A DNA stretch of 64,000 nt from the NCBI RefSeq assembly GCF_000242255.2, contig NC_017033.1:806001-870000 (forward strand). Reading direction: 5' to 3'. Of this stretch, positions 31,793-36,493 are shown in pieces. The notes under the pieces are model-generated. The model was not told where the DNA came from. It saw nothing but the letters and a program-made list of their open reading frames with translations, and did not search any database. Position numbers and translations under genes: made by a program. The DNA comes from Frateuria aurantia DSM 6220. Its GTDB lineage: Bacteria; Pseudomonadota; Gammaproteobacteria; Xanthomonadales; Rhodanobacteraceae. The number at the start of each line of letters is the position of its first letter. The first letter of the stretch is position 1.

Positions 31793-31824
31793 TCACGGGT
31801 TTCGGAAGAAATCGACGCCTGATG

Positions 31825-31855
31825 ACGGGCCGGCAGTGATGCCGGCCCGTTTTTT
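31825..31855 (+). terminator. Rho-independent terminator after the M3 peptidase
   Basis: ACGGGCCGGCA / TGCCGGCCCGT stem with a GTGA loop and a T run, 32 bases after the stop codon. Confidence 0.92.
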
Positions 31856-32153: not shown

Positions 32154-32783
32154 ATGTCAGAAAATAAGAACGATCTAAAAGCTGGGGCGGGTGCTGTCCC
32201 GTTTCTGCCGGCACGGCGCAGGCTGCTGCTGGGGCTGGCCACGACGGTGGCCGTTGTCGAGGCGGGGGCGCTGGCGGCGACTCCACGGACGGGGCTCGCG
32301 GCGACATTCGCCACGTCGGCTTCGGCGGTGCCGGGCAGCGCGCAGGCCGTGGTTCCGGCCGCGATCCTTGATCGCTTCATGGCGCTGTCGCGGGTGATGA
32401 CTGCGCGGGCCGATCTCTCGGCCGAGACGGGTGCGCGGATCTATCAGGCGCTGCTCGCCGCGGATGCTTCGCGGGCTGCTGCCTTTGAAGCCCTGTTCGC
32501 GCTGCCGTTGGCGGAACGGACGGCCGAGCAGGTGTTGGCCGCGGCCCGAGGCAAGGGCCGGGACGGGCTCCTGCACGAACTGGTTGCCGCCTGGTACACG
32601 GGAACGGTGGGGCAGGGCAATCAAGGCGTGCTGGTCGCTTACGCCGAGGCGCTGATGTATCGCACGGTCAGCGACGGTCTGATCGTGCCGACTTATGGCA
32701 GTTACGGGCCATTGTGGTGGACCGGGAATCCCCCGGCCCTGGGTATTGCGGAACATGGAAGGCAGGGCGGGATGCAGGCATGA
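32154..32783 (+). CDS. Small (gamma) subunit of a membrane-bound FAD sugar dehydrogenase
   Basis: A 209-residue protein with a twin-arginine signal (P-A-R-R-R-L-L-L-G-L-A) at about residues 20-30, and a helical mature domain typical of the FAD-SLDH small-subunit family: F-M-A-L-S-R-V-M-T, A-W-Y-T-G-T-V, A-L-M-Y-R-T-V-S-D, Y-G-P-L-W-W. In related gamma-alpha-beta complexes this subunit is the carrier that takes the signal-less flavoprotein through Tat. Start 32154 chosen for the signal. The stop overlaps the flavoprotein start by four bases (ATGA), so translation is coupled. Confidence 0.85.
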   Translation: MSENKNDLKAGAGAVPFLPARRRLLLGLATTVAVVEAGALAATPRTGLAATFATSASAVPGSAQAVVPAAILDRFMALSRVMTARADLSAETGARIYQALLAADASRAAAFEALFALPLAERTAEQVLAAARGKGRDGLLHELVAAWYTGTVGQGNQGVLVAYAEALMYRTVSDGLIVPTYGSYGPLWWTGNPPALGIAEHGRQGGMQA

Positions 32784-34432
32784 ACAGGGCAGAGAAACTG
32801 GCGAACGGCGATTACGCCGCCGATGTGGTCATCGTCGGTTCGGGCATCGTCGGCGGCCTGATTGCCGACCAGATGGCGGCAGCGGGGCATTCGGTGCTGA
32901 TTCTGGAGGCCGGCATGCGTATCCAGCGCGATCAGGCGGTGGAGAACTGGCGCAATATGCCGTTCGACAATCGTCTGCACTCCGATTTCCAGGGGCTTTA
33001 TCCGCAGTCGAAGCTGGCGCCGGCGCCGCTGTATTTTCCGGAAAACCACTATGTCGGCCTGAGTGGACCGAATGGAAGCGCCTTCAAGCAGGGCTATCTG
33101 CGCACCGTCGGCGGTACCACCTGGCACTGGGCCGCTTCCTGCTGGCGGCATTTGCCGGTGGACTTCAAGATGAAGAGCACCTACGGCGTGGGTCGCGACT
33201 GGCCGATCAGCTACGAGGAGTTCGAGCCTTATTACTGTCGCGCCGAGCAGGCGCTGGGGGTGGCCGGACCCAGCGATCCGGCGATGCAGTCACCTCCGCA
33301 GCGCAGCCAGCCCTATCCGCTGGACATGGTGCCCTGGGCTTATGGCGACAAGCGTTTTGCCGAAGTGGTCAATGCCCACGGTTTTCATTCGATCCCGATT
33401 CCACAGGCCCGCAGTACCCGGCCCTGGAATGGCCGTCCGACCTGCTGCGGCAACAACAACTGTCAGCCGATCTGTCCGATCGGCGCGATGTACAACGGCA
33501 TCCACAGTATCGAGTCGGCCGAACGCCGTGGCGCCACGGTGCTGGCGGAGTCGGTGGTCTACAAAGTCGATACCGACCTGAACAACCGCGTCGAGGCCGT
33601 GCACTGGTACGATGCCTCGCACCAGTCGCACAAGGCCAGCGGCAAGGTCTTCATCTTCGCCTGCAACGGCATCGAGACGCCGCGCTTGCTGCTGCTGGCC
33701 GCCAATGCCCAGAATCCCCGAGGCATCGCCAATGCGTCCGACCAGGTCGGCCGGAACATGATGGACCACTCGGGACTGCACTGCAGTTTCATCGCCAACG
33801 AGCCGTTGTGGATCGGTCGCGGTCCGGCGCAGAGCAGTTGCATCGTCGGTCCCCGCGACGGCGACTTCCGCTCGAGGTACTCGGCGAACAAGATCATTCT
33901 GGACAATATCTCGCGAGTGGCGCCTGCCACCGAGCAGGCCCTGAAGCTGGGTCTGGTCGGCAAGGCGCTGCAGGACGAAATCCGTCGACGTGCCGTCTGC
34001 AGCGTCGATCTGTCGATCAGTCTCGAACCGCTGCCCGATCCGCGCAATCGGCTGACCCTGAGTCCGGATCGTCGTGACCCCCATGGCCTGGCCTGTCCGG
34101 ACATCTATTACGACGTGGGCGATTACGTGCGCAAGGGTGCCGAAGCCGTCAAGGGCCAGTTGCGGCAGATCGGTGATCTGTTCGGCGCCAGCGAATTCGT
34201 GATCAATGACGATCTCAATGCCAACAACCACATCATGGGCGGGGTGATCATGGGAGCTGATCCGCGGGACTCAGTGGTGGACGCCGATTGCCGCTCACAT
34301 GATCATGCCAACTTGTGGCTGCCGGGTGGTGGTGCGATGCCTTCGGCCAGTGTAGTGAACACGACGTTGAGCATGGCAGCTCTGGCCATCAAGGCGGCTG
34401 ATTCCATCGGCAAGGTCATGGCGCGCAGTTGA
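32780..34432 (+). CDS. GMC-family flavoprotein (alpha) subunit, gluconate/sorbitol dehydrogenase type
   Basis: A 550-residue GMC oxidoreductase. A Rossmann FAD loop G-S-G-I-V-G-G lies at the N-terminus, then V-G-G-T-T-W-H-W. A cysteine cluster C-C-G-N-N-N-C (Cys222, 223, 228, plus Cys232) matches the 3Fe-4S site known from FAD glucose dehydrogenase of Burkholderia and its relatives. The C-terminus has N-N-H-I-M-G-G and N-T-T-L-S. It should oxidise a sugar or sugar acid in the periplasm and send electrons through the Fe-S centre to the haem subunit. The overall pattern is closest to gluconate 2-dehydrogenase in my memory, but substrate cannot be fixed. It has no signal of its own. Confidence 0.88.
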   Translation: MNRAEKLANGDYAADVVIVGSGIVGGLIADQMAAAGHSVLILEAGMRIQRDQAVENWRNMPFDNRLHSDFQGLYPQSKLAPAPLYFPENHYVGLSGPNGSAFKQGYLRTVGGTTWHWAASCWRHLPVDFKMKSTYGVGRDWPISYEEFEPYYCRAEQALGVAGPSDPAMQSPPQRSQPYPLDMVPWAYGDKRFAEVVNAHGFHSIPIPQARSTRPWNGRPTCCGNNNCQPICPIGAMYNGIHSIESAERRGATVLAESVVYKVDTDLNNRVEAVHWYDASHQSHKASGKVFIFACNGIETPRLLLLAANAQNPRGIANASDQVGRNMMDHSGLHCSFIANEPLWIGRGPAQSSCIVGPRDGDFRSRYSANKIILDNISRVAPATEQALKLGLVGKALQDEIRRRAVCSVDLSISLEPLPDPRNRLTLSPDRRDPHGLACPDIYYDVGDYVRKGAEAVKGQLRQIGDLFGASEFVINDDLNANNHIMGGVIMGADPRDSVVDADCRSHDHANLWLPGGGAMPSASVVNTTLSMAALAIKAADSIGKVMARS

Positions 34433-35916
34433 TGGATGTCCGTATCGTGAAATCAGAAGCCCGTTCCAGCTACGTTCCGTCGAGCAGCTGGCGTCGCCTG
34501 ACGACATTGGGCCTGGCCATCGGTCTGGTCTGTGGCAGTCTGCTGACGCCGCTGGCCGCACAGGCGGAAGACATCTCTCCGCAGTTGATCGACCAGGGGC
34601 ATCGGCTGGCAGTTGCCGCCGACTGCCAGGCCTGTCATACCGATGTCCTGCATGGCGGGAAACCATTTGCCGGCGGCTATTCGATCCACTCGCCGCTTGG
34701 GGTCATCTACGCAACCAATATCACCCCGTCGCGCTCGGCCGGCATCGGCGACTACAGCGAGGCCGAGTTTGCCCGCGCGCTCAGGCAGGGGGTGCGTCGT
34801 GACGGCGCACACCTCTATCCGGCGATGCCGTACACCTCGTATACCCAGCTGACGGATACCGATATCCATGCGCTGTATGCCTATTTCATGCACGGCGTTC
34901 AGCCGGTGGATGTGCAGGCCCATCAGACCCATCTGCCGTTTCCCTTCAGCATCCGGGCCTCGATGGCGGTATGGAATGCCTTGTATCTGCGGGACCGGCG
35001 CTTCAGGCCGGATACGTCCAGAACGGCGGAGGTCAATCGTGGCGCCTATCTGGCTGGTGCATTGGAGCATTGCGATGCCTGCCATACGCCGCGCAATGCG
35101 ATGATGGCTGAATCCTCGAGCCGGCCCCTGGCTGGCGGGATGGTCGGGGAATGGTTTGCTCCCAATATCAGTTCGGATCCGGTCAGTGGCATCGGTGGCT
35201 GGACCGATGAGCAGCTGTTCTCGTATCTGAAAACCGGGCGGGCAGCCGGTATGGCCCAAGCGGCCGGAGGCATGGCCGAGGCCGTCGAGCACAGTCTGCA
35301 GTATCTGCCGGATGACGACATCCGCGCCCTGATCGCCTATCTGCGCACCACGGCACCGCAGCGCGATCCCGGCGAGTCGAAACCGGCGTTCACTTATGGA
35401 GCGGCAGCGAGTGCCGAGCCTTCTCTGCGCGGTCTCAGCGGGCACCATGATCGGGAGGCCCTGAGGGGAGGGGCACAGCTGTACAGCGGCTTCTGCGCCA
35501 GCTGCCACCAGCCGGATGGCTCAGGCAGCGCGAATCAGGCCTATCCTTCACTGTTCCACAATACGGCCACCGGCTTGCCGAATCCCTCGGATCTGGTGGC
35601 GGCCATGCTCAATGGCGTGGATCGCACGGTGGATGGGCGGCAGGTGCTGATGCCGCGCTTCGACCGTCAATCCTATGTGGCGCAATTGAGCGATGAGCAG
35701 ATTGCCGAGATTGCCAATTATGTCCTGCAGCACTACGGCAACAGCTCGCAGCGTGTCACGCCCGGGGATGTGTTCGAAGCCCGGGGCGGCGGCAAGCTGC
35801 CTTTGATCGCCCGTTTGCAGCCCGACATCGTGCCGGCAATGCTGGGCGGTGTTCTGGTGTTGGTGCTGATCCTGTGGCTGGTCTGGCGACGTTGGCACAG
35901 GAGGTTTCAAGGCTGA
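34432..35916 (+). CDS. Three-haem membrane cytochrome c (beta) subunit of the dehydrogenase
   Basis: A 494-residue protein: a hydrophobic signal at about residues 18-45 ending A-Q-A, three c-type haem motifs C-Q-A-C-H (65-69), C-D-A-C-H (214-218) and C-A-S-C-H (355-359), and a C-terminal membrane anchor followed by a basic tail W-R-R-W-H-R-R. It takes electrons from the flavoprotein and passes them to ubiquinone. Its ATG overlaps the flavoprotein stop (TGATG), so the three subunits form one translationally coupled operon. A terminator follows. Confidence 0.93.
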   Translation: MDVRIVKSEARSSYVPSSSWRRLTTLGLAIGLVCGSLLTPLAAQAEDISPQLIDQGHRLAVAADCQACHTDVLHGGKPFAGGYSIHSPLGVIYATNITPSRSAGIGDYSEAEFARALRQGVRRDGAHLYPAMPYTSYTQLTDTDIHALYAYFMHGVQPVDVQAHQTHLPFPFSIRASMAVWNALYLRDRRFRPDTSRTAEVNRGAYLAGALEHCDACHTPRNAMMAESSSRPLAGGMVGEWFAPNISSDPVSGIGGWTDEQLFSYLKTGRAAGMAQAAGGMAEAVEHSLQYLPDDDIRALIAYLRTTAPQRDPGESKPAFTYGAAASAEPSLRGLSGHHDREALRGGAQLYSGFCASCHQPDGSGSANQAYPSLFHNTATGLPNPSDLVAAMLNGVDRTVDGRQVLMPRFDRQSYVAQLSDEQIAEIANYVLQHYGNSSQRVTPGDVFEARGGGKLPLIARLQPDIVPAMLGGVLVLVLILWLVWRRWHRRFQG

Positions 35917-36010: not shown

Positions 36011-36493
36011 TCAGTGGGCCTGCTTGGTATAGACGGCTGCGCCGACTTCGGCCGCGTGGTTGTCCTGGATATTGTTGCCGCCGCTGACGCCGACGGCGCC
36101 GATCACGGTGTCACCGACGATCAGGGGCACGCCGCCACCGGCAGGCAGGGCACCGGGCAGGCCCAGCACATTGTTCAGACCATGGGCCACGTCCTGTTCC
36201 AGCGAACGGGTGGGGCGCTTGTAGAACACGGCCGAATGGGCCTTCTTGATCGACAGTTCAATGCTGGCGAGCTGGGCATTGGCCATGCGCTCGACCAGGA
36301 TGATGTTGCCGCCGGCATCCATCACGGTGACCACGTCATTGGCATGGTCGGCCGTCGCCTGGGCTTCGGCGGCGGCAGCCATCTGGCGGGCCAGCGACAG
36401 GTTGATCTGGGCCGGTTCGGCGGCCTGGGCGGCAACCGCCGAGCCGAGACCGATGACGGCGGCGAGGGTGAGCGAGAACTTTTTCATGAGCAT
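36011..36493 (-). CDS. Exported HbpS/GlcG-like (DUF336) protein, second copy
   Basis: A 160-residue protein with signal peptide (M-K-K-F-S-L-T-L-A-A then A-Q-A) and a DUF336/HbpS-GlcG domain: V-V-T-V-M-D-A-G-G, R-M-A-N-A, K-K-A-H-S-A-V-F, G-L-P-G-A-L-P-A-G-G-G-V-P-L and G-D-T-V-I-G-A-V-G-V-S-G-G. It is closer to the standard family than the copy at 26.6 kb. The start is put at 36493, five bases after AAGG; ATG 36487 is the alternative. It converges on the dehydrogenase operon, and a haem-related link to its cytochrome subunit is conceivable but unproved. Confidence 0.8.
   Translation of the reverse strand: MLMKKFSLTLAAVIGLGSAVAAQAAEPAQINLSLARQMAAAAEAQATADHANDVVTVMDAGGNIILVERMANAQLASIELSIKKAHSAVFYKRPTRSLEQDVAHGLNNVLGLPGALPAGGGVPLIVGDTVIGAVGVSGGNNIQDNHAAEVGAAVYTKQAH

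Follow-up and report, generated by a model that had tools for sequence, protein, structure and literature searches.

A three-gene dehydrogenase operon of Frateuria aurantia and its probable identity as kgdSLC

Within a 64,000-nucleotide stretch of the Frateuria aurantia DSM 6220 genome (contig NC_017033.1, positions 806,001 to 870,000; hereafter the window, whose numbering is used below) lies a plus-strand operon of three genes for a candidate 2-keto-D-gluconate dehydrogenase (KGDH). The first gene (32154..32783) encodes the small (gamma, or "hitchhiker") subunit, a putative KgdS orthologue of 209 amino acids that is matched by the Pfam family PF12318 (E 3.8e-33). It begins with a twin-arginine translocation (Tat)-type leader with an RR motif (ARRRLLLGLA) and contains no cysteine. 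The second gene (32780..34432) encodes the catalytic flavin adenine dinucleotide (FAD) subunit (alpha; 550 amino acids; KgdL orthologue), which matches both the N-terminal and the C-terminal GMC families in a Pfam search (GMC_oxred_C, E 6.1e-18). The third (34432..35916) encodes the three-haem cytochrome c subunit (beta; 494 amino acids; putative KgdC orthologue), which is matched by cytochrome c families. Its CXXCH haem motifs are found at residues 65, 214 and 355, and an N-terminal leader and a C-terminal hydrophobic anchor, IVPAMLGGVLVLVLILWLVW, can be recognized by eye. Stop-start overlaps link gamma to alpha (ATGA, 32780..32783, +) and alpha to beta (TGATG, 34430..34434, +), as stated in an earlier reading of the window made from the sequence alone (the original prediction).

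Among solved structures, the top match of all three subunits is the corresponding chain of D-fructose dehydrogenase (FDH), which we take to be the Gluconobacter japonicus enzyme. The FDH chains match residues 8-543 of alpha (E 1.9e-190), residues 38-489 of beta (E 1.2e-133) and residues 46-197 of gamma (E 4.9e-11), values strong enough to exclude chance resemblance. The type of enzyme first proposed, a Tat-exported, membrane-bound FAD/Fe-S/three-haem dehydrogenase, is borne out. The misleading name of PF12318 aside, no substrate-specific Pfam or NCBIfam family matches any subunit above its cut-off.

The cofactor residues can be mapped by alignment column onto the FAD-glucose dehydrogenase of Burkholderia cepacia (BcGDH). 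As described in the structure report (PMC6719666), Cys212, Cys218 and Cys222 are the 3Fe-4S ligands, FAD is covalently held by His105, His476 and Asn519 are the likely catalytic pair, and a disulfide between alpha Cys213 and gamma Cys152 joins the subunits; the same text describes this bond as not conserved across the family, so that it is not a defining feature. The cysteine cluster of the window alpha comprises four residues, of which Cys222, Cys228 and Cys232 align with the 3Fe-4S ligands and Cys223 with the disulfide partner Cys213; His116 aligns with His105, and His484 and Asn527 with the catalytic pair. Homology to BcGDH thus predicts FAD attachment at His116, a 3Fe-4S cluster on Cys222, Cys228 and Cys232, and catalysis by His484 and Asn527. 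The original prediction had placed the cluster on Cys222, Cys223 and Cys228; the first and third of these stand, Cys223 was mistaken for a ligand and Cys232 was missed.

Genes that have been tested by knock-out provide the link to a substrate. In Gluconobacter oxydans NBRC3293, kgdABC encode proteins of 222, 552 and 476 amino acids, and the KGDH cytochrome has three CXXCH motifs and a C-terminal transmembrane segment (PMC9692623), in agreement with the three motifs and the hydrophobic C-terminus, judged by eye, of the window beta. The open reading frames (ORFs) of one G. sphaericus NBRC 12467 locus, L069, have identical lengths (222, 552 and 476 amino acids). Primers compared with L069 were two for NBRC3293 kgdL (PMC5003925), ten of the 14 for ATCC 9937 kgd genes (PMC9304662; kgdC down-R, kgdS up-F, kgdS up-R and kgdL up-F of its Table 1 were left out) and two for Acetobacter malorum. 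All 12 Gluconobacter primers fall in L069 with 0-2 mismatches, ordered from just 5ʹ of kgdS to the end of kgdC. The three pairs that allow a test of arm length span 1000, 999 and 1000 bases, in agreement with the 1000-bp knock-out arms published for ATCC 9937 (PMC9304662). One primer described as the start of kgdS sits 47 bases 5ʹ of the L069 kgdS ORF in a different frame, which indicates that the start was placed differently in the two records. In ATCC 9937, single knock-outs of kgdS, kgdL or kgdC each ended the conversion of 2-ketogluconate (2KG) to 2,5-diketogluconate (2,5-DKG) and the associated browning, according to PMC9304662. Since primers and ORF lengths map to L069 and the knock-outs abolished 2KG oxidation, the KGDH clade described below is tied to tested genes, in Gluconobacter only.

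Orthologous loci were collected by a scan of one genome per species across 84,980 species, from which the best 80 loci were listed (not a census); with three plasmid loci and the window, these make up the 84 KGDH loci to which all counts out of 84 refer. The alphas of the best 80 listed are 72-83% identical to that of the window, and the closest named orthologue among the matches listed is that of Frateuria defendens (83%). All seven mapped alpha residues (Cys222, Cys223, Cys228, Cys232, His116, His484 and Asn527) are invariant in 84 of 84 alphas, and the gene order is small subunit, large subunit, cytochrome (S-L-C) at every locus, including the window.

Trees were built with 27 of the 84 loci; L017, with apparently split genes, and L019, an unannotated plasmid locus, were excluded. 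In a careful alpha tree of 52 rows, the 27 KGDH rows form one clade (support 100/100; 200 of 200 bootstrap trees), separate from seven FDH rows (100/99), from glucose dehydrogenase and from three sorbitol dehydrogenase (SLDH)-type rows (100/100). The SLDH-type label of L148 and L149 comes from nearby glp-like genes, recognized by eye, as GOX2094-2097 lie near GOX2087-2090 (PMC6174558), and L150 was placed by the tree alone. Within the KGDH clade, the Gluconobacter anchors form their own subclade, and the window and F. defendens lie beside them in an order that is weakly supported (85/42). In a quick gamma tree, the 27 KGDH rows also form one clade, with a support of 98 in the Shimodaira-Hasegawa-like approximate likelihood-ratio test (SH-aLRT), no bootstrap and 21 of 49 forks left open. 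The window alpha is 76.3% identical to that of L069 (over 535 residues), 52.1% to FDH, 48.7% to BcGDH and 44.6% to the SLDH-type L149. Moreover, 22 alpha positions mark the KGDH clade, being conserved in at least 95% of it, with another residue shared by at least six of the seven FDH rows and no more than two occurrences among 18 other rows. Eighteen of them do not vary among the 84 alphas, and none of the 22 is changed in the window. They include S331, C354, V356, I373, I377, S414, L415, A481, W513, P515 (82/84) and S524, positions that, judged from their surroundings in the sequence, may lie near the substrate; A481 adjoins N482-N483-H484 in the window alpha.

The operon is very likely the F. 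aurantia orthologue of kgdSLC, encoding the membrane-bound FAD/3Fe-4S/three-haem KGDH (EC 1.1.99.4). It resembles Gluconobacter kgdSLC in gene order, domains, three haems, C-terminal anchor, and cofactor and clade-marking residues. Unlike there, the gamma is only 37% identical and lacks a cysteine kept in 82 of 84 sampled orthologues, the operon does not stand beside a gluconate dehydrogenase (GADH) operon, and the host is a gammaproteobacterium. Glucose, gluconate, sorbitol and fructose had been listed as possible substrates. That list is not supported, and the operon points to a fifth compound, 2KG. The large subunit would be folded and loaded with cofactors in the cytoplasm, and the leader of the small subunit would then take it out by way of the Tat system. 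On the periplasmic side, His484 and Asn527 would oxidize C5 of 2-keto-D-gluconate to yield 2,5-diketo-D-gluconate, with electrons passing from FAD through the 3Fe-4S cluster and the haems of the membrane-anchored cytochrome to ubiquinone. Such an enzyme would account for any ability of Frateuria, a non-acetic-acid bacterium formerly classed as Acetobacter, to form 2,5-DKG. Colonies of F. aurantia Kondo 67T, a strain isolated from a lily, form a soluble brown pigment (PMC3910546). Browning is also a property of 2,5-DKG (PMC9304662), which one route to vitamin C passes through, and this compound may hint at a source of the pigment. Overall, the operon is very probably mostly ordinary, a known kind of enzyme and no novel mixture of subunits.

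Genes near the KGDH loci accord with a ketogluconate pathway. These were counted strictly, looser clustering having lumped related families (short-chain dehydrogenases, LacI and major facilitator superfamily proteins), and were compared with 23 control loci of other paralogues, which are shorter (median 14.0 vs 21.6 kb). A gluconate 5-dehydrogenase gene is found near 17 of the 84 KGDH loci and none of the 23 controls, with one representative passing the curated cut-off; nine of the 17 loci are from Rahnella, and the neighbour counts are neither even nor independent. The GADH large subunit is encoded near eight KGDH loci (four Gluconobacter and four Gluconacetobacter; 8/10 acetic acid bacteria loci) and no control, lying about 4.6 kb from L069, and a 2-hydroxyacid dehydrogenase near four. 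Enzymes of these kinds reduce 2,5-DKG back to gluconate. In the F. aurantia genome there is one GADH operon with the small-subunit family PF13618 (C1:64-68 kb); its large subunit shares 63.3% identity with that of Gluconobacter. Three full-length membrane dehydrogenases that depend on pyrroloquinoline quinone (PQQ) and belong to the glucose/quinate family score above the TIGR03074 cut-off. Together with the window operon, these enzymes could allow oxidation of glucose to gluconate, 2KG and 2,5-DKG. Least certain among these steps is the oxidation of glucose, because TIGR03074, we assume, does not separate glucose from quinate enzymes.

Several observations weigh against this assignment. The identities of the two smaller partners discriminate poorly and would not decide alone: beta is 55.7% identical to L069, 50.1% to FDH, 47.5% to BcGDH, 44.7% to L149 and 51.8% to the FDH-like operon of the same genome, and gamma 36.7%, 30.6%, 35.4%, 29.9% and 35.5%, respectively, and 47.5% to the gamma of F. 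defendens. A free quick beta tree splits the KGDH rows, with seven rows from acetic acid bacteria set apart and grouped with two rows of C-S-L order, and the window placed with 19 other KGDH rows (support 99). Holding the 27 rows together gives a likelihood better by 28 log units (approximately unbiased test, p-AU 0.915); a grouping of the two Frateuria betas (window and F. defendens) with six FDH rows is weakly rejected (p-AU 0.037). In the subunit phylogenies that the original prediction proposed as a check, alpha (100/100) and gamma (98) fall with one characterized enzyme, and beta is no more than compatible with the same placement. The window gamma also lacks its otherwise conserved cysteine. 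Acetobacter malorum strains are described as kgdL-positive yet without KGDH activity in PMC5003925, so the gene name kgdL alone is no guarantee of activity; the best fits of the two A. malorum primers to L069 leave 4 and 6 mismatches, which makes the clade membership of that gene uncertain. In G. oxydans 621H, by comparison, neither kgdL nor KGDH activity was detected (PMC5003925). In F. aurantia, GADH does not adjoin the operon, neither gluconate gene is matched in the window, and the genome holds only short-chain dehydrogenases below the curated cut-off for gluconate 5-dehydrogenase and none above it. A GADH-type cytochrome also matches at one of the 23 control loci (L154), and a brown pigment is unspecific. 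An open-access search for Frateuria with ketogluconate yielded no paper on this operon, and neither that search nor the available part of PMC3910546 yielded a report of 2KG oxidation by F. aurantia.

Of the other identities the operon might have, the one that survives best, though it is improbable, is that of a KGDH-clade enzyme that in Frateuria has come to prefer another keto-aldonate, an aldonate or a sugar. The clade is broad, its ties to tested genes run through Gluconobacter members in a separate subclade, and the window departs from most orthologues at D375 of alpha (Asn in 80/84) as well as at the gamma cysteine. Nevertheless, it retains every one of the 22 clade-marking positions, and its similarity to the anchored alpha extends over 535 residues.

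Still less probable is a D-fructose dehydrogenase, yielding 5-keto-D-fructose. FDH provides the top structural match for every subunit and shares architecture, cofactors, the catalytic His/Asn and the preceding Asn-Asn with the window enzyme. However, G. japonicus FdhSCL (EC 1.1.99.11) has an alpha only 52.1% identical and belongs to the seven-row clade from which the window is excluded, and the 22 marking positions carry different residues under the stated cut-offs. The FDH operon is described with the order fdhSCL (PMC7055074), as seen in six of six FDH-clade loci, and a separate S-C-L operon of that clade already exists in the F. aurantia genome.

Identity as an FAD-sorbitol dehydrogenase, to which the Pfam label of PF12318 (FAD-SLDH) would point, is very improbable. 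The original prediction called the small subunit FAD-SLDH-type, likened it to the sorbitol branch and saw a mixed pairing with a catalytic subunit of the gluconate 2-dehydrogenase branch. PF12318 matches nine of nine small subunits scanned from outside the KGDH clade, including the solved FDH and BcGDH chains, and the Gluconobacter KGDH small subunit as well. Its hits comprise all seven in one set (FDH, BcGDH, an SLDH-type locus and four paralogues of the same genome) and all three in a second (Gluconobacter KGDH, the FDH-like operon of the same genome and L146). It is a common small subunit of the FDH, glucose dehydrogenase, SLDH-type and KGDH branch, and its name carries no information on sorbitol. 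The apparent mixed pairing is an accident of Pfam naming. Gluconobacter SldSLC (EC 1.1.99.21) shares the PF12318 subunit and S-L-C order with the window; the SLDH-type loci, in contrast, form a separate clade (L149 alpha 44.6%) and have Glu at the alpha Cys213 position in three of three cases. The sboA/sboR neighbours of G. frateurii sldSLC (PMC8102297) were not recognized among the flanking ORFs of L146-L149, read by eye with no domain search. Finally, gluconate 2-dehydrogenase, a common automatic name in this superfamily, can be set aside, as can the proposed branch of the catalytic subunit: the GADH branch has a PF13618 small subunit, not PF12318, its large subunit has about 590 amino acids vs 550, and the only PF13618 operon of the genome lies elsewhere, with a large subunit 30.5% identical to the window alpha.

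The missing cysteine sets the putative Frateuria KGDH apart. At the position equivalent to gamma Cys152 of BcGDH, 82 of 84 KGDH gammas have Cys and the two Frateuria gammas (window and L020) have Gly. In G112, a third genome of the same bacterial family that does not count among the 84 loci, the residue is Ala, judged by eye, and the gamma is free of cysteine. The alpha partner cysteine is retained in both Frateuria and in G112. An alpha-gamma disulfide of the BcGDH type cannot form in the window enzyme, which otherwise shares its architecture, cysteine cluster, FAD-His and His/Asn pair with BcGDH, a member of another clade (alpha 49%). Within the sampled KGDH clade, absence of the bond looks restricted to these bacteria. 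In the wider family the bond is dispensable, as PMC6719666 states: FDH gammas have Ala at this site in seven of seven cases with the alpha Cys likewise kept. On balance we favor a working Frateuria 2KG dehydrogenase without the disulfide, in which the alpha Cys stands unpaired beside the 3Fe-4S cluster; if so, the enzyme offers a natural test of what this bond does.

The distribution of the KGDH operon is patchy. Among 147 genomes sampled from the family of F. aurantia, three have an alpha of at least 73% identity (the window, one at 83% and one at 73%), and among 369 sampled across its class, one reached E 1e-200, the window itself. Of 26 Gluconobacter genomes, 14 encode an alpha with 71-76% identity. 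The neighbourhoods of the plasmid orthologues gave no clear cue to substrate, and phage records yielded one weak, partial cytochrome match, which was disregarded. At L017:12001-15044, on a Pseudomonas silvicola plasmid, the large-subunit and cytochrome genes both appear split.

Upstream of the operon, a terminator-like hairpin (31824..31851, +) follows a peptidase gene and is perhaps the 5ʹ boundary of the operon; three such sites occur in the region vs 2.3 expected by chance, which is weak taken alone. A sigma-70 promoter scan of the operon region found no promoter. Downstream, a convergent HbpS-like gene (36011..36493, -; PF03928, E 7.4e-29) encodes 160 amino acids from its likely start, with a probable signal peptide, and is found at the same place in F. 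defendens. Relatives lie near 13 of the 84 KGDH loci, which come from Gluconobacter, Gluconacetobacter, Burkholderia and both Frateuria, and near three of the 23 controls, two of these FDH-clade operons. The protein may help to handle haem for the three-haem cytochrome.

Elsewhere in the F. aurantia genome, the S-C-L operon inside the FDH clade lies at L009:7157-11081 (C1 ~3,312-3,316 kb), and through it the organism may also make 5-keto-fructose. A third operon of the family (L010:7803-11351; C1 ~2,412-2,415 kb) has an alpha 47% identical to that of the window, in which Cys-Arg replaces the Cys-Cys pair of the cluster, and adjoins two PQQ-dependent membrane dehydrogenases (C1:2,415,838-2,421,881) from the glucose/quinate family. 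In Gluconobacter, an S-L-C operon (L146:5859-9506 and L147:710-4357) that neighbours the KGDH clade in the tree, with a very long branch, stands beside an apparent pyruvate decarboxylase gene, recognized by eye. A beta-propeller protein with a weak lactonase-like match is encoded directly 3ʹ of kgdC in seven Gluconobacter and Gluconacetobacter loci (e.g., L070:13056-14252).

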